Made by a program: the position numbers and the translations under genes | Source of the DNA: Massilia antarctica | Lineage (GTDB): Bacteria; Pseudomonadota; Gammaproteobacteria; Burkholderiales; Burkholderiaceae_D | NCBI RefSeq assembly: GCF_015689335.1 | Contig: NZ_CP065053.1 | Location: 6,076,001-6,140,000, forward strand | DNA: 64,000 nucleotides | Direction: 5' to 3' | Notes under the pieces: generated by a model | What the model was told of the DNA's origin: nothing | What the model saw: the letters and a program-made list of their open reading frames with translations, nothing else | Databases searched by the model: none | Part shown: piece after piece, positions 1,166 to 13,794 of the stretch | Layout of the letters: each line of letters starts with the position of its first letter | Numbering within the stretch: the stretch's first letter is position 1

Positions 1166-1374
1166 GACGAAATCGAGATTGCGCCAGTCGCGGTTGACCC
1201 TGTCATGGATGCCTTGCGCGTTCACGCCGCAAACAGGCCAAGGCAACTGCTTCGCATTCAAGGCGACTCCGTAATCGATCCCCGCTTGGCGGTGTCGAAG
1301 TCGACCTTGACCACTTCCCATGGCGATTTCAATCCCGGCGCGGACGTAAACAAGGCTTCAACACCAGCACTCAT
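1166..1374 (-). pseudogene. ISL3-family transposase N-terminal remnant
   Basis: From an ATG at 1374 the minus strand reads MSAGVEALFTSAPGLKSPW and then EVVKVDFDTAKR, which resembles the start of ISL3 transposases. A one-base frameshift near 1270 moves the rest to another frame, GIDYGVALNAKQLPWPVCG followed by QGIHDRVNRDWRNLDF, the family's region before and around the first zinc-binding Cys pair (CPVC or PVC). The sequence stops resembling ISL3 at about 1166 and continues as an IS630 C-terminus. The catalytic domain is absent, so it cannot be active. Confidence 0.65.
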
Positions 1375-2369
1375 TATGTGTCAAGACCCGCTTGGTTATA
1401 TACGCGTTTTAAGAACAGATCCGGCTTTTCTTCATGCCATTTCTTGAGTGCCTGAACCGGCGTTTGATGGTTTAACGCGCGCTGAGGAATGTTGTGGTTG
1501 TAAATTTTGGCGTAATTGCGCAGCGTTGCTTCGAGCTCGGCTGCGCAACCAAACCGGGTTTGATTAACGATCTCACTGATGCGGCCATTGAAGCGCTCCA
1601 CCATGCCGTTGGTTTGCGGGTGGCGTGGCGGAATGAGCCGGTGCTCAATCTTGAGCTGCTTGCAAAGGATGTCGAACACATGCTTGCCACTGGGTATCCG
1701 GTTGCCCTCGGCGTCTTTTTTCTTACTAGTAAAACGGTCTGTAAATTGACTGCCGTTATCGGTGAGCAGCTTGACGATCTTGACCGGACAGGCTGCCGTC
1801 ACCTTCGCCAGGAAATCGACACTGCTGCTGTCGGTCTGATCGGCGTAGATGTCCATGTAGACCCAGCGCGTTGCACGGTCGATGGCAACGAACAAATAGC
1901 GACGCGCTGTTTCGTCCGGCATCTGCGGCAAGTACTTGATATCTATGTGTAAAAAGCCCGGCTCGTAGTCCTTGAAGGACTTTTTTTCGACCGGCTTTTC
2001 CGGCTCCTGCAGAGCGACGAGGTCACGCAGATCCGACACGCCGTGGCGACGCAGGCAGCGCCCCAGACCGGCTCTGGAGACTGCCGGATTGATGAACTCA
2101 CGGGTGACCGCCAGCAGGTCGTCAGTGGGCAGCAAGAGCGTCGTGCGCAGCTCCACGACGATGAGTTCTTGCGTCGGCGTGAGCGTCGTGTTCAGCGTGA
2201 GCGGACAATGCGAGCGGTCGACAGGACTGTCGCGATCCTGCCACTTGCGAATCGTCTGGCGCGAGACATTGTAGAGCCGGGCAAGCTCGGCCTGGGACAG
2301 CGTGGAGGTTCGAATTTCCTCGCGTATCAGATGGGTGGTACGAGCTTGGCTGTGCAGGGCTTGGGTCAT
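1374..2369 (-). CDS. IS481-family transposase
   Basis: This 331-residue protein is an apparently intact DDE transposase of the IS481 type. An N-terminal helix-turn-helix (about residues 24-43, SQAELARLYNVSRQTIRKW) would bind the element ends. The rve-type catalytic core shows D143 in HIDIKYL, D204 in LLTDNGSQF and E258 in TNGMVERFNGR, the expected D-D-35-E style triad with a longer spacer. The stop codon overlaps the ATG of the ISL3 remnant. I could not match a convincing pair of terminal repeats; the sequence TGTGTCAAGACC just after the stop is a candidate outer end. The 5' flank was later split by the IS4 element at 2447. Confidence 0.88.
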   Translation of the reverse strand: MTQALHSQARTTHLIREEIRTSTLSQAELARLYNVSRQTIRKWQDRDSPVDRSHCPLTLNTTLTPTQELIVVELRTTLLLPTDDLLAVTREFINPAVSRAGLGRCLRRHGVSDLRDLVALQEPEKPVEKKSFKDYEPGFLHIDIKYLPQMPDETARRYLFVAIDRATRWVYMDIYADQTDSSSVDFLAKVTAACPVKIVKLLTDNGSQFTDRFTSKKKDAEGNRIPSGKHVFDILCKQLKIEHRLIPPRHPQTNGMVERFNGRISEIVNQTRFGCAAELEATLRNYAKIYNHNIPQRALNHQTPVQALKKWHEEKPDLFLKRVYNQAGLDT

Positions 2370-2436: not shown

Positions 2437-2446
2437 AGCTACGGAT
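2437..2446. repeat. Target site duplication of the IS4 element, left copy
   Basis: AGCTACGGAT directly abuts the left end of the IS4-family element and is repeated exactly at 3848-3857. A 10-bp duplication is within the range known for this family and shows that the element moved in as a unit. Confidence 0.93.
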
Positions 2447-2472
2447 CAATCCTCCCAAGTTAAGGAATGTGC
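2447..2472. repeat. IS4 element left inverted repeat
   Basis: Begins CAATCCTCCCAAGTTAAGGA and matches the reverse complement of 3822-3847 at 25 of 26 positions. Confidence 0.93.
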
Positions 2473-2477
2473 ATTGA

Positions 2478-3734
2478 TCAACATGGCTTTTGCGCCATGA
2501 ATTTGTGCGATTTCGGTCTGGGTTTGCGCGGCTTAGACTGGTTTTCTCGATGAAGGTAAGTGTGTTTTCCAAGTAACTTGAGCACGTCACGCAAGTTCCT
2601 GGCGATCTGCCTGCCAAGCAGCAGTGCCGGCATCGCGGGCTTCAGTGCGGTATGGGCGTATGCGTGGTTGATGCGGTCGACCGCGCGCAAGTCGGCCTGG
2701 TCATGGGCGGTCAGCGCAGCTAAAGTCTGCAGGTTATCGCACATGATTTTGGCGGCGACATCCTGGACCACGGCCTGCTGCGACAGGCCGGAGACATGCT
2801 CCAGGTTGAGGCGGTGCTTGAGCCGCTTGAAGGCTTCCTCAATGCGCCAGCGCTTGTGGTACAGGTCGCCAAAGGCGCTGGCCGGGAAGCGCCCGGTGTC
2901 GAACAAATTGGTCATCAGCACGCGTACTTTGCCGTTCGGCGCGACGTGGCGCACCAGGCGAACCTGCTGGGGCGCGCGGTTAAATTCGTAGTCGGCGGCA
3001 TCGCGCCGCGATGGCGCATTGAGTGTAACCACCTGCTCATCGAGGCCGGAACGTAGAAACGCGCGCACGCAGGCGAAGCCGCCGTCACCGGCTTTTTCCA
3101 CCCGCATGCAGAACGAGATAGCGCGCTCGTTGAGCAGTGCAACGAGCCAGCACGCTGGATAGCCCCGGTCCAGCAGCAGCAAGTCGTCGCTTGAGAGTCG
3201 GTCCAGATGCTGGACCAGCATCTGGCGCTCGCCGCACTCCTCGATGCCGTGCAGCGAGGTCGCCAGCATCAGCTCTGCGCCAGGCAGGAACAGGCCGAAG
3301 AGAATTTGGTCGGGCAGCGCGGCGCGCGCGAGGCAGCTGGTGCGCAGGCCGAAACGCACCGTCGAGGCGTCGGCGGCGACCAGGCGCAAGCTACGCCAGC
3401 GCGGCACGAACCCATGCTGCTCGGCGCGGGCGACGAGCCAGTCGTTGAGCAAAGGGATGGCGGTCAGGGACAGCTTGGCGCGCGCTTGCGCGAACGCCTG
3501 CTCGGACACTGTGCGCAGCAATTGGGCGCGCCCCGCCAGGTGGCCGAAGAACGTGTCGAGTTCGGCCTGAATGCTCATGCGCATGCCGCTCAGCATGAGC
3601 GCCACGAGCGACGGCAACGGCAGCTTGCGGCGCCGTGTAAACGCCGTCGGATGCTCGGGATGCCTGGCCGAGTCAAGGAATTCGGGGGACTGTAATCGCA
3701 CAGCGAGGTCGATAAAAAGTGCAGTAAGAGACAT
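2478..3734 (-). CDS. IS4-family transposase
   Basis: The 418-residue product has the IS4 DDE signature: D122 in VAADASTVRF, D189 in LLLLDRGYP, and a YREK block made of Y292, R295, E299 and K306 within LYHKRWRIEEAFKRLKH. It would cut and rejoin the element ends by a hairpin mechanism as known for this family. The reading frame fills most of the 1401-bp element and shows no frameshift, so it is probably functional. The last residues are rich in Lys, Arg and Pro. Confidence 0.92.
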   Translation of the reverse strand: MSLTALFIDLAVRLQSPEFLDSARHPEHPTAFTRRRKLPLPSLVALMLSGMRMSIQAELDTFFGHLAGRAQLLRTVSEQAFAQARAKLSLTAIPLLNDWLVARAEQHGFVPRWRSLRLVAADASTVRFGLRTSCLARAALPDQILFGLFLPGAELMLATSLHGIEECGERQMLVQHLDRLSSDDLLLLDRGYPACWLVALLNERAISFCMRVEKAGDGGFACVRAFLRSGLDEQVVTLNAPSRRDAADYEFNRAPQQVRLVRHVAPNGKVRVLMTNLFDTGRFPASAFGDLYHKRWRIEEAFKRLKHRLNLEHVSGLSQQAVVQDVAAKIMCDNLQTLAALTAHDQADLRAVDRINHAYAHTALKPAMPALLLGRQIARNLRDVLKLLGKHTYLHRENQSKPRKPRPKSHKFMAQKPC

Positions 3735-3821
3735 GGTAGCCAGCGAGAAAAAATCTCACTGGCGGCGCAGTTCATAATCTATATGTCAAGCTATTTATCA
3801 ACTATTCACCATATTTTTTAA

Positions 3822-3847
3822 GCAAATTCCTTAACTTGGGAGGATTG
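3822..3847. repeat. IS4 element right inverted repeat
   Basis: Begins GCAAATTCCTTAACTTGGGA, the inverted partner of 2447-2472 with one mismatch. Confidence 0.93.
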
Positions 3848-3857
3848 AGCTACGGAT
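3848..3857. repeat. Target site duplication of the IS4 element, right copy
   Basis: AGCTACGGAT, identical to 2437-2446 and directly abutting the right end of the element. Confidence 0.93.
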
Positions 3858-3962: not shown

Positions 3963-4484
3963 TCAAGTCAATAAATTTACATGGGCAATAATTTTTTTTA
4001 TTCGCAAAATTTGGTTGTAATTTTCGTATTCGAACGGATGTTCGTCTACTTGTTTTACACAGTGTTCAAAAAGTTTACCCCATGACTTCAGAAAATAATT
4101 TTTACTAACCGTGCATTTACAAAAATTCTCGCCCCTTTCACCAACAGGAAGCGGTCCATGCCGCCAATCTGCGCGAATCTCAAGGTCATCGCAGTTCCAG
4201 TTTAGTTGCCAATCACAATCGAATTCTTCCTCATGCAAAAATCCCGTATAGTATTCACCTGATTCGAGCCGAATTAACTCTTCAATGATATCGAGAAGAT
4301 TATCAAGAATATCAGATAAACAATAAGTAAAAGGAAATTTTAAACCAACACCATTCCACTTTATTGTAAAAAAATCGGTGTGATATGAGAAGGTTTTGTC
4401 AATAGCGGCCGAAAAATCGTAGACTTGCAGACAATCAGGCGACTGCAGGTCCTTTATATCCACAATATTTATATCCCAAGTCAT
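3963..4484 (-). CDS. Putative immunity protein for the downstream Rhs toxin tip
   Basis: A 173-residue acidic, Trp/Tyr-rich soluble protein starting MTWDINIVDIKDLQS. I do not recognise the family. Its ATG lies one base after the stop codon of the Rhs gene at 4486-8079, the usual position of a cognate immunity gene behind a polymorphic toxin. Its base composition is clearly more AT-rich than the Rhs core, as is normal for tip/immunity cassettes acquired by transfer. There is no signal peptide or membrane segment, so it should act in the cytoplasm by binding the toxin tip. The immunity role is inferred from position only. Confidence 0.68.
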   Translation of the reverse strand: MTWDINIVDIKDLQSPDCLQVYDFSAAIDKTFSYHTDFFTIKWNGVGLKFPFTYCLSDILDNLLDIIEELIRLESGEYYTGFLHEEEFDCDWQLNWNCDDLEIRADWRHGPLPVGERGENFCKCTVSKNYFLKSWGKLFEHCVKQVDEHPFEYENYNQILRIKKIIAHVNLLT

Positions 4485-4485
4485 T

Positions 4486-7400
4486 TTATGTCTTTATTTT
4501 CGTTGTTCGAGGAGTTACAGGATAATTTTTTGGAACGGGAAATGCATGAATACTCCCGCCACCTGCGCCAGCGGGCTGGACCTCGATAAAAATATGGGTA
4601 GCGGGCTTAGTCCCTCCAGTCGGAAGATGAAGAATGTTCAAGGTACCTTCTGGAGCTTCAATCACCACTCTTTCTCCAATTGGCAACTTTCTTGCCTCGG
4701 CTATGGCATATTCCACATCTGCTTTTGAACCAAATTGCCCTTGCAAATTTCCTTTGGTTCTGGCGCGGTTCTGAGCTTCATTATATCCCCACTTTATACC
4801 ATGTTGCTTCGCTGGACTATTACTCAACGATGCCTCAGGTCGATATTTTTTACCGGGGAGCGACCCGTCTTCGGTGGTACACACATCCATCAACCCTAGC
4901 GGGTCAATAGAACTTAATGGATTATCCACATACGCATACGGATTCGGCCCACCCGCCAAGCCCAACGGATCCGGCGTCAAATACCGCCCGGTACTCGCAT
5001 CATAATAGCGATGCCAGTTGTACGCCAGCTTCGACTCGGCGTCGTAGTACTGCCCCTGGAAGCGGATCGGGCAATCGGTCTGGCTGACCGTCGTTTCCTC
5101 GATCTCGCCCCACAGATTGCTCCTCGCCTGCCAGGCAATACCGCCATCGGCGTCGATCAGCTCCTTCGGCGTTCCGATATGGTCAAGAACCACCGCGTAC
5201 GTTTTGCTGGTTTCCTTGCCCTTGCGCCGGATCGTCTCGGTCTTGGCGAGCGGCCGGAAACTGTCCGGCTCGTAGTCCCAGGTCGCGCAGATCTCCTCGA
5301 TGAGGTCCGATCCGCCCTTGCCGTCCGGCCTCCTCCCGAAACGCCTTTCCTCCGCGACCGTGTGGCCATCCCACAGGTATTCCACTTCCGTAAAGCGCGC
5401 AGCGCGATCGCTCGGGACCTGCTTTTTGGTCAGCCTGCGGCCCAGGACATCATACGTATAGTCCCAGGCATCGCCATCGGGCGTGATCACGCGCTTGAGG
5501 CGGTTCTCGCTGTTCCACACGTAGTGCCAGTGCTGTTGCCGGCCCCAGCGCTTGCCTTCAATACGCGTCGTGACACGGCCTTCCAGGTCGTATTCGTACT
5601 TGACCTTGCCAGCTTGCATCAGCTTGCCGCGCTGATGGAGGCGTTGTCCCCGCGTGTCGGCGTTGCCCTCGTCGGTATCGAGCAGCGACTTTTGCTTGAT
5701 CGCATCGATCAGATTACCCGCGAGATCATAAGCGTATTGCTCGCCGCCGTTGCCGCGGCTCGCTTGCGTCACCCGCCCGACCTTGTCGTAACCGATGTCA
5801 ATGACGCCGGTACTGCGCTCGCCCAGCTTGTGCGGATTGCCGTTGCCATCGTAATTGACCGCGCGTTCCTGCAAGGTGCGTGCCTGCCGGCCCTTGTCCG
5901 CCGCGATGCCGGTCCATTGCCGGGTCAGGCGGTTGAGCGGGTCGTATTCCTGCTCGATGCGGGCGCCGCCCGGCAATTGCCGCCCTGTTTCACGACCGCC
6001 GCTGTCGTAAAGAAAGCTGAACATCTGCGCATCGGGCAAGGTCAGTTCGAGCGGCAGGCTGTTGGCGTCGAATTCCCACACGCTGCTGTGCCCGCCAGAA
6101 CTGCTGCGCTCGGTGCGCCGGCCCATCAGGTCATAGCCGCTGACGATGCTGCGCCCGTTCTGGGTTTCCCTGACCACGCGCCCCTGTGCATCGCGCTCGA
6201 AGCGGATGTCGCTGTCGGCATTGACGGCGCTATCCAGGCGGCCCAGCACATCGTAGGTGTAGCGCGTGCTGCCCTCGCTGGCGACCTGTTCAAGCAACTG
6301 GCCCGCGTGATTGCGCAGGTAGCGCGTATGCTGGCCCGACGGCGTGCGTTTCCCGATCACCAGACCGTCGGCGTCGACTTCGTATTGAACGGTGCGGCCG
6401 GCGAAATCGGTTTCCGCGATGACTTGCCCGGTGGCGTTCCGGAGATAGCTCCAGCGCTCGCCCATGGGATTGACAACGGCACTCAGGCGCAGCTCGGTAT
6501 CGTATTCGTAGCGCGTGACGGCGCCGTTGGCCTCGGTCGTCTGGGTCAGCCGGTCGAATGCGCCATAAGCGTGGCGTGTCACGTTGCCCAGCGCATCGGT
6601 GCGGGCGATGCAATTGCCTTCGGGATCATACTTGGCGAGGTGGCGGCTGCCACCCGGCAAGGTGATCTCCAGCGGCAAGCCTTCGACGTTGTAGACGTAA
6701 TGACTGGTATGTTGCTGCGGGTCGGTGCGCGCGGTGACGCGGCCGAAGGCGTCGCGCGCGAGCCGGGTCGGGTTGCCCAGCCAATCGGTGACACTGGTCA
6801 GCAGCCCGCGCTCATCGTGGGCGAAGGCGGCCTGGGCACCGGCGGGATCGACCACGCGCAGCACATTGCCCTGCGCGTCATGCTCGAAGCGCGTCCACGC
6901 GCCGCTTCCGCCGACCTGGACCAGGTTGCCACGTTCGTCGTAGCCGCGTTCGATGCGCGTACCGTCGGGCGAGGTCACGGCCACCGGCAAGTCGCGCTGG
7001 TTGTAGGCGACGACGGTTTCCTTGCCCGACGCATCGATGTGGCCAACCATGTTGCCACGCGCATCATAAGCCCAGCGCAGGACCGCGCCGCCCGGCGTGA
7101 TGGCGGCGACCAAGTTGCAATGCGCGTCGAAATCGAACTGGCTGACGCCGCCGCGGGCATCGACTTCCTTGATGACCTGGTAATCGTCGTTGTAATGGTA
7201 TTCGGTGGCATGGCCCAGCGAATCGGTATAGGTGTTGACCTTGCGCGCATCGTCGTAGACGAAGCCGCCGGTCATATGGCCGCCCCCGCCCCCGCTGGTC
7301 TGTTCGCAGCGCCCCCTGGTGTCGTAGCGGTATCCGATCCACACGCCGTTGCGGTCCTGCCAGCGGGTCAGGCGATGGGCGCCGTCATAAGTGTATGTCA

Positions 7401-8079
7401 GCGGCAAACCGCCGCTGTTGACGATGGCCGACAGCTCGCCGTCAGCATGGTAGGTGTAGCTGGCCAGGGTGGTCTGCGCACCATCCGCATGCAGCAAACT
7501 GATGCGGGTAATGGCGTGTTCGCTCGCCTCGACCTTGAGGCGCGTGCCGCCGCTGTGGCGCACCTCGCTCAGCACCGCGCCGTCGTAGATCAGCGCAATC
7601 CGGTTCGCGTTGCGGTCCGTGATGGCCGACAAATGCCAATGCGTCGCATCGCGCTGCTCGAAGCGCAAGCTGGGCTGATGCCGCTGCGCGATCAGGAAGT
7701 GGCCGTCGAGCCGGCTCACGCTGTACGCCTGATACACGCCATGGGTAACCTTGGCGCCAGGCTTCGGCATGTCGAAACGCATCGATGCGCCGTCCTCGGC
7801 GTGGAAAACCAGCTCCGCGTCGCCGTTTACTTCGATCCATTGGCCCCAGGTGCTGGCCCAGGCCTTGCCAAATAGCGTGCCGCTCGGATTGCCGGAGGTG
7901 TGCAGGCGCCGCAGCACGATGGGCAAGGCGCCCGCCAGGGCGAAGTCGGTTTGTTCCAGGATCACGTTGCCGGTGACCACGTCGATCGGATCGCCGCATT
8001 TGCAGAGCGTCTCGTCGGGACGCTCCTTGACGGAGTTGAATTTGCTGGCGGCAGGTACGCCGCCCCTGACGAAAGCCAT
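4486..8079 (-). CDS. Rhs-core protein without PAAR domain, with a C-terminal toxin tip of unknown type
   Basis: 1197 residues. Residues 1-1063 are an Rhs/YD-repeat shell almost identical to residues 256-1318 of the neighbouring PAAR-Rhs protein and of the same length. The shell begins with CGDPIDVVTGNVI and ends with the Rhs hallmark GLAGGPNPYAYVDNPLSS followed by DPLGL. In known Rhs toxins the shell encloses the tip and self-cleaves near that hallmark. The tip (residues about 1064-1197, DNA 4489-4890) contains QGQFGSKADVEYAIAEARK, PEGTLNILHLP, ATHIFIEV and GGSIHAFPVP; I cannot assign it to a toxin family. The start at 8079 has a GAGAGG ribosome-binding site six bases upstream, so the protein can be translated on its own, but it lacks the PAAR and membrane segments needed to load on a type VI spike. 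It may be a silent donor of a tip, or use another export route. Confidence 0.87.
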   Translation of the reverse strand: MAFVRGGVPAASKFNSVKERPDETLCKCGDPIDVVTGNVILEQTDFALAGALPIVLRRLHTSGNPSGTLFGKAWASTWGQWIEVNGDAELVFHAEDGASMRFDMPKPGAKVTHGVYQAYSVSRLDGHFLIAQRHQPSLRFEQRDATHWHLSAITDRNANRIALIYDGAVLSEVRHSGGTRLKVEASEHAITRISLLHADGAQTTLASYTYHADGELSAIVNSGGLPLTYTYDGAHRLTRWQDRNGVWIGYRYDTRGRCEQTSGGGGGHMTGGFVYDDARKVNTYTDSLGHATEYHYNDDYQVIKEVDARGGVSQFDFDAHCNLVAAITPGGAVLRWAYDARGNMVGHIDASGKETVVAYNQRDLPVAVTSPDGTRIERGYDERGNLVQVGGSGAWTRFEHDAQGNVLRVVDPAGAQAAFAHDERGLLTSVTDWLGNPTRLARDAFGRVTARTDPQQHTSHYVYNVEGLPLEITLPGGSRHLAKYDPEGNCIARTDALGNVTRHAYGAFDRLTQTTEANGAVTRYEYDTELRLSAVVNPMGERWSYLRNATGQVIAETDFAGRTVQYEVDADGLVIGKRTPSGQHTRYLRNHAGQLLEQVASEGSTRYTYDVLGRLDSAVNADSDIRFERDAQGRVVRETQNGRSIVSGYDLMGRRTERSSSGGHSSVWEFDANSLPLELTLPDAQMFSFLYDSGGRETGRQLPGGARIEQEYDPLNRLTRQWTGIAADKGRQARTLQERAVNYDGNGNPHKLGERSTGVIDIGYDKVGRVTQASRGNGGEQYAYDLAGNLIDAIKQKSLLDTDEGNADTRGQRLHQRGKLMQAGKVKYEYDLEGRVTTRIEGKRWGRQQHWHYVWNSENRLKRVITPDGDAWDYTYDVLGRRLTKKQVPSDRAARFTEVEYLWDGHTVAEERRFGRRPDGKGGSDLIEEICATWDYEPDSFRPLAKTETIRRKGKETSKTYAVVLDHIGTPKELIDADGGIAWQARSNLWGEIEETTVSQTDCPIRFQGQYYDAESKLAYNWHRYYDASTGRYLTPDPLGLAGGPNPYAYVDNPLSSIDPLGLMDVCTTEDGSLPGKKYRPEASLSNSPAKQHGIKWGYNEAQNRARTKGNLQGQFGSKADVEYAIAEARKLPIGERVVIEAPEGTLNILHLPTGGTKPATHIFIEVQPAGAGGGSIHAFPVPKNYPVTPRTTKIKT
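4891..8079 (-). repeat. Rhs core direct repeat, copy 1 (3189 bp)
   Basis: Aligns without net gaps with 9030-12218. The encoded 1063 residues differ at roughly 35-40 positions by eye. Near-identity begins about 30 bases inside the tip-proximal end (around 4919) and fades in the first 15 codons after the ATG. Upstream of 8079 there is no resemblance to the other copy. Confidence 0.92.
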
Positions 8080-8097
8080 GATCGGCCTCTCGCTTGA

Positions 8098-8109
8098 TCA
8101 CACGTGTGA
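8098..8109. promoter_or_regulatory. Perfect 12-bp palindrome upstream of the second Rhs gene
   Basis: TCACACGTGTGA lies about 20 bases upstream of the ATG at 8079, in the 165-bp gap after the immunity gene. On the minus strand a TTGACA-like hexamer precedes it but no matching -10 box is evident. It could be an operator or a chance palindrome. Confidence 0.3.
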
Positions 8110-8244
8110 CTCGTGTCAAGCATGCCGCATCAGAGCAGTCTGCTGGCCGGGCGTCATCACGGAACCGTGACCTGCCCGCGTTTCTGAATCCATTCCAGCC
8201 CAAACCGATGGCCAGCTCGGGAACAATCAGTCGCCATTTACGAA

Positions 8245-8640
8245 TTAGTCAATTAACTTCGGCTTTGCAGAGAAACTACGCTTAACGTCCGAAAAGCTAC
8301 CCTCATTTAACATCCACAATCGAAAATCTTCGCCTTCCTCGTCATCGACAAAAAACGTCCCACATACTTCCAATTCCATCCGCGATATTTTTTCAAGGCA
8401 ATCTTTAAAAAACTGAGTGGCACGTTCGTTCAGATTGCCCCCGTAAAATACGAGACTAATCCAATTCATTGGCCCAGGAGGGAAAGTCCAGCCATTTTTA
8501 TACAATTCTGCCTGGCTTTCCGTGAGCGCATAGCCGGGAAAAAGCTTCCAATGCTCATCAATTGTTTTTTTTATTTCAGCTACGTCATCAAAAGAACATT
8601 CCAGCCATCCTCTGATTAATGAAAATTTAGCCAAGATCAA
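8245..8640 (-). CDS. Putative immunity protein for the PAAR-Rhs nuclease tip
   Basis: A 131-residue soluble acidic protein starting MILAKFSLIRGWLECSFDD. I do not recognise a named family. Its ATG overlaps the TGA of the PAAR-Rhs gene by four bases (ATGA at 8637-8640), so toxin and antidote are translationally coupled. The AT-rich composition matches the adjoining tip and differs from the Rhs core. By position it should bind and block the C-terminal nuclease-like domain in the cytoplasm. Confidence 0.72.
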   Translation of the reverse strand: MILAKFSLIRGWLECSFDDVAEIKKTIDEHWKLFPGYALTESQAELYKNGWTFPPGPMNWISLVFYGGNLNERATQFFKDCLEKISRMELEVCGTFFVDDEEGEDFRLWMLNEGSFSDVKRSFSAKPKLID

Positions 8641-11600
8641 TCCCCCAATCCAGTAATAACCGTTGCGCCTTTTCCTTCAATATACGCCCTCACCTTTGGA
8701 TGAACTCCATATTTAAACCAGTACTCCGTACTCTTGCCGATTTCATTTCCGGTTTCAATTGTTTTCTTTATTTGATCTCGCGTCGATTTATTTAAAAACG
8801 TTTTTGGGTTCTCAATGGCGGAAGTTGATCGCTTAGCCTGAATTAATTTATCAGAAGTAACAGCATCAATTTCTCTTCCATTGATTACTTCCGACTTTCC
8901 ACCAGTTTTTGCTCTAATCAAATCCTCATAGTGTATATCCAACGCCTCACGATATTTGCGCTCATCGAACCTTTTTTTTGCATCTTTGGAAAGTTTTAAC
9001 CCTCCACTGTTGTTATTACATGCGTCCATCAACCCAAGCGGATCCGTAGAGCTGAGCGGATTATCCACATACGCATACGGATTCGGCCCACCCGCCAAGC
9101 CCAACGGATCCGGCGTCAAATACCGCCCGGTACTCGCATCATAATAGCGATGCCAGTTGTACGCCAGCTTCGACTCGGCGTCGTAGTACTGCCCCTGGAA
9201 GCGGATCGGGCAATCGGTCTGGCTGACCGTCGTTTCCTCGATCTCGCCCCACAGATTGCTCCTCGCCTGCCACGCGATAACGCCATCGGCGTCGATCAGC
9301 TCCTTCGGCGTTCCGATATGGTCAAGAACCACCGCATACGTTTTGCTGGTTTCCTTGCCCTTGCGCCGGATCGTCTCGGTCTTGGCGAGCGGCCTGAAAC
9401 TGTCAGGCTCGTAGTCCCAGGTGGCGCAGATCTCCTCGATGAGGTCCGATCCGCCCTTGCCGTCCGGCTTCCTCCCAAAACGCCTTTCCTCGGCGACCGT
9501 GTGGCCATCCCACAGGTATTCCACTTCCGTAAAGCGCGCAGCGCGATCGCTCGGGACCTGCTTTTTGGTCAGCCTGCGGCCCAGGGCATCATAGGTATAT
9601 TCCCAGGCATCGCCATCGGGCGTGATCACGCGCTTGAGGCGGTTCTCGCTGTTCCACACGTAGTGCCAGTGCTGTTGCCGGCCCCAGCGCTTGCCTTCAA
9701 TACGCGTCGTGACACGGCCTTCCAGGTCGTATTCGTACTTGACCTTGCCAGCTTGCATCAGCTTGCCGCGCTGATGGAGGCGTTGTCCCCGCGTGTCGGC
9801 GTTGCCGTCGTCGGTGTCGAGCAGCGCTTTTTGCTTGATCGCATCGATCAGATTACCCGCGAGATCATAAGCGTATTGCTCGCCGCCGTTGCCACGGTTC
9901 GCTTGGGTCACCCGACCCACATTGTCGTAACCGATGTCGATGACGCCGGTACTGCGCTCGCCCAGCTTGCGCGGATTGCCGTTGCCATCGTAATTGACCG
10001 CGCGTTCCTGCAAGGTGCGTGCCTGCCGGCCCTTGTCCGCCGCGATGCCGGTCCATTGCCGGGTCAGGCGGTTGAGCGGGTCGTATTCCTGCTCGATGCG
10101 GGCGCCGCCCGGCAATTGACGCCCTGTTTCACGACCGCCGCTGTCGTAAAGAAAGCTGAACATCTGCGCATCGGGCAAGGTCAGTTCAAGCGGCAGGCTG
10201 TTGGCGTCGAATTCCCACACGCTGCTGTGCCCGCCAGAACTGCTGCGCTCGGTGCGCCGGCCCATCAGGTCATAGCCGCTGACGATGCTGCGCCCGTTCT
10301 GGGTTTCCCTGACCACGCGCCCCTGTGCATCGCGCTCGAAGCGGATGTCGCTGTCGGCATTGACGGCGCTATCCAGGCGGCCCAGCACATCGTAGGTGTA
10401 GCGCGTGCTGCCCTCGCTGGCGACCTGTTCAAGCAACTGGCCCGCGTGATTGCGCAAGTAGCGCGTATGCTGGCCCGACGGCGTGCGTTTCCCGATCACC
10501 AGACCGTCGGCGTCGACTTCGTATTGAACGGTGCGGCCGGCGAAATCGGTTTCCGCGATGACTTGCCCGGTGGCGTTCCGCAGATAGCTCCAGCGCTCGC
10601 CCATGGGATTGACAACGGCGCCCAGGCGCAGCTCGGTATCGTATTCGTAGCGCGTGACGGCGCCGTTGGCCTCGGTCGTCTGGGTCAGCCGGTCGAATGC
10701 GCCATAAGCGTGGCGTGTCACGTTGCCCAGCGCATCGGTGCGCGCGATGCAATTGCCTTCGGGATCATACTTGGCGAGGTGGCGGCTGCCACCCGGCAAG
10801 GTGATCTCCAGCGGCAAGCCTTCGACGTTGTAGACGTAATGACTGGTATGTTGCTGCGGGTCCGTGCGCGCGCTGACCCTGCCGAAGGCGTCGCGCGCGA
10901 GCCGGGTCGGGTTGCCCAGCCAATCGGTGACACTGGTCAGCAGCCCGCGCTCATCGTGGGTAAAGGCGGCCTGCGCTCCAGCCGGATTAACGACGCGCAG
11001 CACATTGCCCTGCGCGTCATGCTCGAAGCGCGTCCATGCGCCGCTTCCGCCGACCTGGACCAGGTTGCCACGTTCGTCGTAGCCGCGTTCGATGCGCGTA
11101 CCATCGGGCGAGGTCACGGCCACCGGCAAGTCGCGCTGGTTGTAGGCGACGACGGTTTCCTTGCCCGACGCATCGATGTGGCCAACCATGTTGCCACGCG
11201 CATCATAAGCCCAGCGCAGGACCGCGCCGCCCGGCGTGATGGCGGCGACCAGGTTGCAATGCGCGTCGAAATCGAACTGGCTGACGCCGCCGCGGGCATC
11301 GACTTCCTTGATGACCTGGTAATCGTCGTTGTAGTGGTATTCGGTGGCGTGGCCCAGCGAATCGGTATAGGTGTTGACCTTGCGCGCATCGTCGTAGACG
11401 AAGCCGCCGGTCATATGGCCGCCGCCACCGCCGCTGGTTTGCTCGCAGCGCCCCCTGGTGTCGTAGCGGTAGCCGATCCACACGCCATTGCGGTCCTGCC
11501 AGCGGGTCAGGCGATGGGCGCCGTCATAAGTGTATGTCAGCGGCAAACCGCTGCTGTTGACGATGGCCGACAGCTCGCCGTCAGCATGGTAGGTGTAGCT

Positions 11601-12983
11601 GGCCAGGGTGGTCTGCGCGCCATCCGCATGCAGCAAACTGATGCGGGTAATGGCGTGTTCGCTCGCCTCGACCTTGAGGCGCGTGCCGCCGCTGTGGCGC
11701 ACCTCGCTCAGCACCGCGCCGTCGTAGATCAGCGCAATCCGGTTCGCGTTGCGGTCCGTGATGGCCGACAAATGCCAATGCGTCGCATCGCGCTGTTCGA
11801 AGCGCAAGCTGGGCTGATGCCGCCGCTCGACCAGGAAGTGGCCGTCGAGCCGGCTCACGCTGTACGCCTGATACACGCCATGGGTAACCTTGGCGCCAGG
11901 CTTCGGCATGTCGAAACGCATCGATGCGCCGTCCTCGGCATGGAACACCAGCTCCGCGTCGCCCTTCACTTCGATCCATTGGCCCCAGGTGCTGGCCCAG
12001 GCCTTGCCGAATACCGTCCCGACCGGATTGCCCGAGGTGTGCACGCGCCGCAGCACGATGGGCAAGGCGCCCGCCAGGGCAAAGTCGGTTTGTTCCAGGA
12101 TGACGTCGCCGGTGATGACGTCGATCGGATCGCCGCACTTGCATTTCGTCCCGTTCGGACGCTCGTTGACGGGGTTGAATTTGGCGACGCCGGGTACGCC
12201 GCCCTTGACGAAAGCCATGGCCGGCGTGGTGGGAGTGGGGATGTACTTGTTGCCGAGCCACGCGCCGCCCTTGGCGCCGGCCATGCCCCCGAGCATGCTG
12301 CCGCCCAGCATCATGGCCTTCTGGCCGTCCGACCCCTCGCCGAACATCATTCCGCCGACGTATCCGCCGACTTCCCCACCCAACATGCCGAGCGCCAGCC
12401 CGCCGAGGGCGACCAAGGGGCCGGCCAGCACCGTGGCACTGGCCAATCCCGCCACCAGCAGGGTCGTGTGCACCCAGCCCGGTACCTCCGGCTTGATCAG
12501 GTCGGGATCGGTAGTGGCCGTCGCGCCGCCGACGAAGACGTTGGGGGAGCCGGCATGGATCTTCGCGCTGCAACTGATCATGTCGCCGACGCGGGCGAAG
12601 GGCTGGCCGTTGACGAACACGGTGGACGAGCCTTGCACGACCAGCTGGGGAGCCGGTCCATGGGTGGCGCAAAGGGCGGTGGAGAGGTGGGCTCGCGCGA
12701 CCTGCTTGCCATTCGCAAAGACGTTCAGCGAGCCGGTCTTGACCGCCCCGGTCAGGTTGGCGCCAAAGACCTTGTCGGTCACATTCATCGAACCGACCAC
12801 TTCCCCGACGCCGGCGGCGCCGGCCGTGACGGCCACCGCCCCGGCCACCGCCACCAGCGCCAGGCCGCCGGTGGCGATGATGGCGGCACCGACCAGCGCG
12901 CCGATCACCAGGCCGGCGATCAATCCGCCCATCGCATGACTATGCGCGATAGGATCGTCGACACGTCCGGCCGCCGCGCCCAA
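8637..12983 (-). CDS. PAAR-Rhs type VI secretion effector with nuclease-like C-terminal tip
   Basis: 1448 residues in this order: Gly/Ala-rich transmembrane region (about 17-60), PAAR domain (about 65-155) that would cap a VgrG spike, second hydrophobic region (about 170-212), Rhs shell (about 256-1318) with CGDPIDVITGDVI at its start and DPLGL at its end, and a 130-residue tip. The tip has a PD-(D/E)xK-like set, E1365, D1373 in GREIDAV and Q1382-x-K1384 in IQAKRS, as in the restriction-endonuclease-fold toxins, so DNA cleavage is the likely activity. The start is a TTG at 12983 directly after the TGA of the chaperone gene, with AGGAG six bases upstream. No vgrG or type VI structural gene is in the window, so this is an orphan effector island. 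Confidence 0.88.
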   Translation of the reverse strand: MGAAAGRVDDPIAHSHAMGGLIAGLVIGALVGAAIIATGGLALVAVAGAVAVTAGAAGVGEVVGSMNVTDKVFGANLTGAVKTGSLNVFANGKQVARAHLSTALCATHGPAPQLVVQGSSTVFVNGQPFARVGDMISCSAKIHAGSPNVFVGGATATTDPDLIKPEVPGWVHTTLLVAGLASATVLAGPLVALGGLALGMLGGEVGGYVGGMMFGEGSDGQKAMMLGGSMLGGMAGAKGGAWLGNKYIPTPTTPAMAFVKGGVPGVAKFNPVNERPNGTKCKCGDPIDVITGDVILEQTDFALAGALPIVLRRVHTSGNPVGTVFGKAWASTWGQWIEVKGDAELVFHAEDGASMRFDMPKPGAKVTHGVYQAYSVSRLDGHFLVERRHQPSLRFEQRDATHWHLSAITDRNANRIALIYDGAVLSEVRHSGGTRLKVEASEHAITRISLLHADGAQTTLASYTYHADGELSAIVNSSGLPLTYTYDGAHRLTRWQDRNGVWIGYRYDTRGRCEQTSGGGGGHMTGGFVYDDARKVNTYTDSLGHATEYHYNDDYQVIKEVDARGGVSQFDFDAHCNLVAAITPGGAVLRWAYDARGNMVGHIDASGKETVVAYNQRDLPVAVTSPDGTRIERGYDERGNLVQVGGSGAWTRFEHDAQGNVLRVVNPAGAQAAFTHDERGLLTSVTDWLGNPTRLARDAFGRVSARTDPQQHTSHYVYNVEGLPLEITLPGGSRHLAKYDPEGNCIARTDALGNVTRHAYGAFDRLTQTTEANGAVTRYEYDTELRLGAVVNPMGERWSYLRNATGQVIAETDFAGRTVQYEVDADGLVIGKRTPSGQHTRYLRNHAGQLLEQVASEGSTRYTYDVLGRLDSAVNADSDIRFERDAQGRVVRETQNGRSIVSGYDLMGRRTERSSSGGHSSVWEFDANSLPLELTLPDAQMFSFLYDSGGRETGRQLPGGARIEQEYDPLNRLTRQWTGIAADKGRQARTLQERAVNYDGNGNPRKLGERSTGVIDIGYDNVGRVTQANRGNGGEQYAYDLAGNLIDAIKQKALLDTDDGNADTRGQRLHQRGKLMQAGKVKYEYDLEGRVTTRIEGKRWGRQQHWHYVWNSENRLKRVITPDGDAWEYTYDALGRRLTKKQVPSDRAARFTEVEYLWDGHTVAEERRFGRKPDGKGGSDLIEEICATWDYEPDSFRPLAKTETIRRKGKETSKTYAVVLDHIGTPKELIDADGVIAWQARSNLWGEIEETTVSQTDCPIRFQGQYYDAESKLAYNWHRYYDASTGRYLTPDPLGLAGGPNPYAYVDNPLSSTDPLGLMDACNNNSGGLKLSKDAKKRFDERKYREALDIHYEDLIRAKTGGKSEVINGREIDAVTSDKLIQAKRSTSAIENPKTFLNKSTRDQIKKTIETGNEIGKSTEYWFKYGVHPKVRAYIEGKGATVITGLGD
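9030..12218 (-). repeat. Rhs core direct repeat, copy 2 (3189 bp)
   Basis: Partner of 4891-8079, offset by 4139 bp and equal in length. Being in direct orientation, the two copies could recombine and delete the intervening tip, immunity gene and second start region. Confidence 0.92.
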
Positions 12984-13460
12984 TCAGGACTCCTGCACGG
13001 CTTGGGCTGCGGCCGGCACCGGCGCATGCAGGTGCATGCTGCCGAGCATGGTATCGAACGCCGTATTCCACTCATCCTTGAAGGCACCGTGACTAGTGCC
13101 GGTCAACAGCAATGCCTTGCTGCGGTCAGCGCTGGCGGCCTGGACAAAGACGGCGACCTGGCGCTGGTGCATCTCGCTATCGCCATTGCGCCAGGTGTAG
13201 TGCAATTGAACCGCTGCCGAGCCGTCCACGGTCAGGTCGCGCTTGCCGAGCAGTTCGAATTTCGGCAACGCCTTGCGCAGCTCGCTTGCAAGGCGAAGGG
13301 CGAAGGCGTCCACCGTGGTCTCGGTGAAGTCTTCGGCGCGCGAAATGACGAACGAGAAATCGCTCGGGCCGTTATCGTTGATGATGAATTGGTTGACCGT
13401 GCGGTCTTTCAGATCAGGGTGAAGGTCGAAGCTCGCTTCGTCGAGATTGTATTGGCTCAT
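12984..13460 (-). CDS. EagR-like (DcrB/DUF1795) chaperone for the PAAR-Rhs effector
   Basis: 158 residues starting MSQYNLDEASFDLHP and containing FVISRAEDFTETTVDAF and LLLTGTSHGAFKDEWNTAFD. This is the DcrB-related DUF1795 type that includes the Eag chaperones. Those are known to shield the N-terminal membrane helices of PAAR-TM Rhs effectors and help load them on VgrG; the next gene has exactly such helices. Its TGA is followed without a gap by the TTG start of the effector, so the two are translationally coupled. No signal peptide is seen, consistent with a cytoplasmic chaperone. Confidence 0.83.
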   Translation of the reverse strand: MSQYNLDEASFDLHPDLKDRTVNQFIINDNGPSDFSFVISRAEDFTETTVDAFALRLASELRKALPKFELLGKRDLTVDGSAAVQLHYTWRNGDSEMHQRQVAVFVQAASADRSKALLLTGTSHGAFKDEWNTAFDTMLGSMHLHAPVPAAAQAVQES

Positions 13461-13794
13461 TGCTGTGACTCTCGTTGGTGAAATCGGAGGGAAACAAAAT
13501 CGGATCGGCGCATCATGCGGCCAGCGACCGGCGCGCGGTGGCAGGCGTCATCGCCCATTCGCACCGCGGCTGTCATTTGCGTTGCGCCGCGAAACCGGAT
13601 CATGGCGCTGCCAATACCTGAAAACGTTTCTAAAAAGTCATGCATCATACCCTTGAACCAAAATAATGTCGATATGTTAATTCCCTCCAGCTTGCGCGCG
13701 CAGGCCGGCAAAGGTGGTTTAACACCCCAAGCCCAGTATGAATTCCAGCTCAACGGTTTAAAGCTGATAATGTGACCCTTGGCGCTGCGATGCC
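13461..13794. other. Intergenic region between divergent genes
   Basis: A 334-bp stretch between the chaperone gene (minus) and the membrane-protein gene (plus). Short open frames here have no start signal or family resemblance. It holds one good minus-strand promoter candidate (13644-13672). Nothing else recognisable was seen. Confidence 0.6.
13644..13672 (-). promoter_or_regulatory. Candidate sigma-70 promoter of the chaperone-Rhs operon
   Basis: On the minus strand TCGACA (13672-13667) is separated by 17 bases from TATGAT (13649-13644). It lies about 180 bases upstream of the chaperone start and would give a long leader. Confidence 0.45.

Follow-up and report, generated by a model that had tools for sequence, protein, structure and literature searches.

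Why would a locus with a single seemingly exportable Rhs gene keep, directly downstream of it, further toxin tips on whole and nearly identical shells? The question arises in a 64,000-nucleotide stretch of the Massilia antarctica genome (here called the window; bases 6076001-6140000 of the 7,432,405-bp single-contig genome), for which a first-pass annotation had proposed a toxin-tip switch. The gene order is chaperone–PAAR–shell–tip1–imm1, shell–tip2–imm2, broken shell–broken tip3–imm3; we refer to the first two effector genes as Rhs1 and Rhs2 and to the three shells as R1, R2, and R3. This is probably a PAAR-Rhs locus of the type VI secretion system (T6SS) type, in which tips have been displaced together with whole shells, gene conversion keeps the shells alike, and crossover can switch the tip. 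The sequence comparisons below give good support to both architecture and conversion; a working tip switch we infer, with one natural product, the database protein P0001, as support.

The two shell repeats (4891-8079 and 9030-12218) are 3,189 bp each and align without a gap at 102 mismatches. The equal-length, near-identical direct repeats of the first-pass annotation thus stand, and its 35-40 amino acid differences are corrected to 33 of 1,063 residues. Similarity spans from the ATG of Rhs2 to the tip junction after DPLGL, a motif that, read by eye, precedes each tip; outside these limits the diagonal is at chance level. The tips are indeed unrelated (best BLASTP E 2.6 for tip1 against tip2), as are imm1 and imm2 (BLASTP E 0.44). 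A value of 32.7% identity between tip1 and tip2, which came from a forced multiple alignment, was discarded because pairwise BLASTP shows no relation. No Pfam or NCBIfam match was found for tip2, imm1, imm2, imm3, or the second tip3 piece, and the tip2 structure model, built without an alignment, is poor (pLDDT 50.7).

Of the two genes, only Rhs1 carries a PAAR match (PF05488, 75.4 bits), hydrophobic segments (two clusters, counted as 19-residue windows with a mean Kyte-Doolittle value of at least 1.6), and an adjoining chaperone gene, as the first-pass annotation had it; a prePAAR_I match in Rhs1 falls under the cut-off (20.6 versus 25 bits). Rhs1 has, by its predicted domains, the architecture of a PAAR-Rhs effector: N-terminal PAAR, YD/RHS shell, tip after DPxGL, and a gene in the immunity position downstream. 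A T6SS is present in the genome, with three TssC/VipB loci, the nearest 0.3 Mb from the array. These loci lie at 4.17, 4.34, and 6.39 Mb, none adjoining the array, which suggests up to three T6SSs.

Genes 2 and 3 lie 3′ of the main rhs gene, belong to the same shell clade, bear distinct tips followed by a gene in the immunity position, and lack the export module, the marks of orphan Rhs-CT/RhsI modules. Such modules are usually, not universally, short fragments without a translation start. Rhs2 keeps a whole shell and an ATG, and for this reason we call it a variant orphan module; the ATG lies six bases 3′ of a Shine-Dalgarno-like GAGAGG (read by eye), in line with the start codon and ribosome-binding site of the first-pass annotation. 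The first-pass annotation described two cassettes, and the array has three. The third shell, beyond the window, is 95-96% identical to the other array shells, with a degenerate 5′ end (a small duplication, by eye, and a stop inside the first domain) and a transposase open reading frame (ORF) upstream; tip3 is split into two frames. On these signs both ends of cassette 3 are pseudogenic; a putative imm3 comes after it, and two transposase ORFs lie between it and cassette 2. With the shell as query, the genome gives six matches: the three array shells (100, 97, and 95%), a locus at 2.37 Mb (84%), and two short matches.

Divergence among the shells is not even, as had been anticipated if conversion tracts were present. 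We used the 2.37-Mb copy as the outgroup in a mosaic test, with divergent ends omitted (2,891 columns). Over these columns the array copies differ by 2.25-3.29%; counted in 100-bp bins, the differences among them have a variance-to-mean ratio of 2.2-2.5, versus 0.98-1.15 against the outgroup copy. The 113 variable interior sites fall into 42 pattern runs versus 72.0 expected, a number as low as which arose in 0 of 50,000 shuffles; shuffling of site types is insensitive to uneven mutation rate. With shell ends kept, 161 sites give 69 runs versus 104.7 (0 of 20,000 shuffles), and the test was also run over a range including about 30 tip columns; all three versions agree. Longest-run tests on single pairs are weaker (p of 0.018, under 1 in 20,000, and 0.035). 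Because differences between copies are clustered and divergence from the 2.37-Mb paralogue is even, we attribute the pattern to gene conversion.

Exchange reaches beyond the array. Between 13418 and 12519, a stretch running from the chaperone gene across the PAAR domain, the Rhs1 end and the 2.37-Mb locus show 15 mismatches in 900 columns; the array shell of Rhs1 is 15.8% different from the 2.37-Mb shell. Over the last 300 bp 5′ of the shell the two loci have 32 mismatches, and there Rhs1 is nearer P0001 (96.2% versus 83.8% of 80 residues). The first 90 shell residues of Rhs1 are 95.6% identical to the 2.37-Mb copy and 83.3% identical to Rhs2. At 29 shell sites copy 1 alone differs, 22 times with the outgroup base, and 9 of these 22 fall within 140 bp near the 5′ end; some copy-1-only sites may instead be changes common to copies 2 and 3. 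To judge from these identities, Rhs1 is a chimera of an N-terminal end in common with the distant locus and an array shell, its chaperone/PAAR end having been exchanged with the 2.37-Mb paralogue.

Rhs2 could also be a gene in its own right, with its own ATG and independent of PAAR, acting as an internal toxin-antitoxin (TA) pair or delivered via another protein. Its intact 1,197-codon frame, with the start signals described above, would fit this, as would a low dN/dS between R1 and R2 (0.115 over codons 91-1063; 0.184 for the whole shell) and the report, in excerpt, of type II TA activity for orphan Rhs toxins in Salmonella (PMC7043789). However, conversion can pass on a low dN/dS, and broken copy 3 itself stands at 0.07-0.09; Rhs2 is also without a PAAR match, hydrophobic segment, or adjoining chaperone gene, and its upstream region yielded no sigma-70-like promoter match. 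We regard an independent Rhs2 as distinctly improbable. No unusually stable RNA fold was found in the same upstream region.

We surveyed 17 genomes of the genus, our own included, for the age of the array; 13 of the 16 others are in 10 or more contigs. Long PAAR-plus-shell matches occur in our genome and four others: M. mucilaginosa (G002), M. frigida (G004), M. rubra (G008), and G010. The M. mucilaginosa contig stops inside its shell. G010 has one PAAR-Rhs gene with another tip and an immunity-position gene, and downstream, in the order of the window, imm1 with the spacer that precedes Rhs2 (79.5% at the DNA level), a shell scrap (score 42.5 versus a maximum of 16.5 in 200 shuffles), the last tip2 codons, and imm2 (72%). 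The spacer was found only in our genome and G010. Homologues of imm1 without tip1 occur in M. rubra (76%) and G010 (82% over 95 residues), the one in M. rubra preceded by a shell scrap (score 27 versus a maximum of 16.0 in 200 shuffles), and an imm2 homologue (59%) stands in G010 without an intact tip2. The large DUF4011/DUF3320 helicase-nuclease gene that neighbours the array in our genome lies 3′ of the locus in both G010 (93.5%) and M. rubra (87.9%), and this common neighbour therefore indicates the same site. The immunity-position gene of G010 has a counterpart in M. frigida, with 93% identity over 150 residues, that sits behind another tip. By eye, G010 has a small ORF between its immunity-position gene and imm1 (L056 11482-12060), which may be a further orphan immunity gene.

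Under vertical descent, the order of the cassettes would predate the split from G010, a dating that rests on one congener. The copies look younger: synonymous divergence (dS) is 0.080 for R1-R2, 0.082 for R3-R1, and 0.115 for R3-R2, against 0.34 (R1) and 0.35 (R2) to G010, and a tree sets the three apart from six other shells with 100% support (within-trio support 59). An old array with young-looking copies amounts to concerted evolution. The tandem arrangement and high identity might suggest a recent duplication whose copies are simply drifting apart without conversion, but the clustered site patterns and the overdispersion set against even outgroup divergence contradict drift alone, and the duplication is not recent, given that the cassette order recurs in a genome with only 90% shell identity. 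We consider this account hardly credible.

In the mechanism that we propose, incoming cassettes would enter by homologous recombination and push old ones down, so that older toxin tips would move downstream together with a whole shell; gene conversion keeps the shells alike, and displaced cassettes would later erode to immunity genes and scraps. Because the shells are near-identical over 3.2 kb, homologous crossover between cassettes is possible, and one between cassette 1 and a downstream cassette would delete tip1 and imm1 and place tip2 and imm2 behind PAAR, so that a single event would exchange the toxin that is delivered. P0001 has the architecture expected from such a crossover. It was the one protein among 280 candidates in a tip2-restricted protein search (1,452 amino acids, named Massilia antarctica, 14 member sequences) and joins PAAR, shell, and tip2, with a length equal to that expected for Rhs1 with its tip exchanged. 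Its tip2 is identical to that of the window at 134 of 134 residues, and it differs from Rhs2 at 26 of 1,197 residues, with no difference from residue 989 to the end. An orphan tip fused to a main gene, as a recombinational tip switch predicts, thus exists for tip2, as does the PAAR-tip2 form that the first-pass annotation expected in a related strain. Across 60 genomes, our own included, tip2 was found in our own only.

Several observations weigh against switching by crossover. At the 33 residues that differ between R1 and R2, P0001 agrees with R1 at 13, with R2 at 19, and with neither at 1, in alternating blocks, and it carries private changes; on these residues, one crossover between the copies that this strain has now did not produce it. 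The predicted one-crossover route therefore holds for architecture and fails for direct descent from these copies. P0001 is rather an allele from a relative, with a mosaic history of its own, known here from its protein sequence. The crossover would delete imm1 as well as tip1. A search with a tip3 piece found none behind a Massilia PAAR gene, nor was tip1 found there; the search for tip1 in other Massilia proteins gave five distant matches, two named Streptomyces, although 90% clustering could hide such proteins. The array order is recorded in G010 only. Furthermore, M. frigida, with a shell that slightly exceeds that of G010 in identity to Rhs1 (94.7% versus 93.1%), gives no imm1, spacer, or imm2 match in the 1.9 kb of contig past the shell. 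Finally, none of the other 16 genus genomes shows a tandem full-shell array, an absence that is weak evidence, since repeats can break drafts.

Much of this would suit displacement without any switching back, in which PAAR-tip2, as in P0001, is the older state, the tip1 cassette was inserted upstream, Rhs2 is a fossil, and the array is a graveyard. The N-terminal plug of P0001 is mostly Rhs2-like (it sides with Rhs2 at 11 of the 15 Rhs1/Rhs2-differing positions among the first 85 shell residues), both ends of cassette 3 are broken, congeners have eroded to immunity genes without tips, M. frigida shows no trace of imm1 or imm2 in its visible 1.9 kb, and sequential displacement is described in the excerpted text of Jackson 2009 (PMC2935791). 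Yet G010 also records the order imm1-shell2-tip2-imm2, and the P0001 shell is nearer to the window copies (97.2-98.0%) than to that of G010 (92.1%), so that, under vertical descent, PAAR-tip2 is more simply derived than ancestral. Displacement alone strikes us as rather unlikely, and an origin of P0001 by crossover in an array is favoured by the same comparisons, not proved, over descent from a pre-array state. Overall, the interpretation in the first-pass annotation is partly supported.

By analogy, we put forward, tentatively, that the whole-shell cassettes could be a maintained archive, concerted evolution keeping stored toxins compatible with the single exportable PAAR gene. If so, the locus could be rearmed by crossover or conversion, in the way that an expression locus draws on silent pilin cassettes, and the genome may run two archives. 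A search with PF20148, the first domain of the shell, gave matches in 11 of the 17 genus genomes (list read by eye), and those within 10 kb on one strand were confined to our genome, in two groups of three: the present array and one at 169-182 kb. The second array (L011 4010-13591 and L012 1481-6127; genome 168-186 kb) holds full-shell Rhs genes with a DUF6861 N-terminus, two of whose shells have a 97%-identical 3.6-kb repeat in common, with fifteen successive 100-bp bins (a 1.5-kb tract) free of mismatches. None of its three proteins gave a PAAR match; one tip matches PF14021 (TNT), and a core-tip scrap lies between genes 2 and 3. Elsewhere in the genome, RHS-repeat matches fall in open frames of 10,887 and 9,723 codons (5.378-5.395 and 3.952-3.966 Mb).

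The coordinates of the features are collected in Table 1. The DUF1795/Eag labels of the chaperone gene are ones that we take to apply, and imm1 and imm2 are named from position. A 1,443-codon open frame runs antisense to Rhs1 and the chaperone gene (window 9150-13481, plus strand), and frames of 954 and 944 codons lie over the second and third shells; these long frames probably arise from codon bias at high GC content.

Table 1. Features of the Rhs array and its surroundings (window positions unless stated otherwise)
Feature	Coordinates	Strand	Remarks
DcrB/DUF1795-type (Eag-like) chaperone gene, presumed label	12984..13460	-	158 aa; Pfam PF08786, 90.1 bits
Rhs1: PAAR, hydrophobic segments, shell, tip1 (Tox-REase-3)	8637..12983	-	1448 aa; TTG start
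PAAR/hydrophobic module, Rhs1 only	12219..12983	-	first ~460 bp near-identical to single-copy 2.37-Mb locus
Shell repeat copy 1	9030..12218	-	
tip1, restriction-endonuclease-fold toxin domain	8640..9029	-	PF15647, E 7.3e-36
imm1, putative immunity gene	8245..8640	-	131 aa
Spacer 5′ of Rhs2	8080..8244	-	74% to G010 homologue
Rhs2: shell and tip2, without PAAR	4486..8079	-	1197 aa; ATG start
Shell repeat copy 2	4891..8079	-	
tip2, presumed toxin domain	4489..4890	-	no Pfam or NCBIfam match
imm2, putative immunity gene	3963..4484	-	173 aa
IS4-like insertion element, between cassettes 2 and 3	2446..3848	-	DDE_Tnp_1 transposase 2478-3734; 27-bp terminal inverted repeats
Integrase-core (rve) transposase ORF, between cassettes 2 and 3	1374..2369	-	
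DDE_Tnp_1_4 transposase ORF	L009 17528-18919		
Third shell	genome 6072205-6075270		0.7 kb beyond window

Tip displacement, main/orphan fusion, and the general mechanism are already published; as far as searched, whole-shell cassettes under concerted evolution and a second tandem array in the same genome are new. Among the matches listed from titles and abstract openings of the open-licence literature, none concerned whole-shell Rhs arrays under gene conversion. The locus links three things usually seen apart, displaced cassettes, ongoing shell homogenisation, and a natural protein of crossover architecture, in a Massilia-type environmental system that would allow direct measurement of how fast toxins switch and at what cost. 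The closest known system is rhs-main/rhs-CT-orphan of Salmonella Typhimurium LT2, where, in excerpts of Koskiniemi 2014 (PMC3967940), an orphan tip with its immunity gene stands downstream of a main gene, recombination joins that tip to the main gene, and the fused form is reported in other serovars. The LT2 genes, however, have 522 bp in common at 95%, and the orphan is described as without translation initiation signals, whereas the present array has 3,189 bp in common at 97%, a downstream gene with an ATG of its own, three copies, and signs of gene conversion. Orphan cdiA-CT/cdiI and rhs modules are likewise reported as functional, and one strain carries a deletion by which an orphan cdiA-CT is joined to the main cdiA, although those fragments, in the excerpted account, generally lack translation initiation signals (Poole 2011, PMC3150448); orphan immunity and tip exchange are described in Serratia (PMC10539506, in excerpt). 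In the Vibrio cholerae T6SS immunity-gene arrays of Kirchberger 2017 (PMC5361080), one effector after another is replaced while the old immunity genes stay in place; G010, M. rubra, and M. frigida resemble these in their leftover immunity genes, whereas the genome of the window keeps the displaced effectors with their shells. The rhs loci of Enterobacteriaceae, as excerpts of Jackson 2009 present them, have strings of displaced core-tip units of the same clade downstream of the intact gene, formed by homologous recombination, with core fragments variable in length and identical within a locus; here, by contrast, the shells are whole, their differences are mosaic, and the PAAR end shows exchange with a distant locus.

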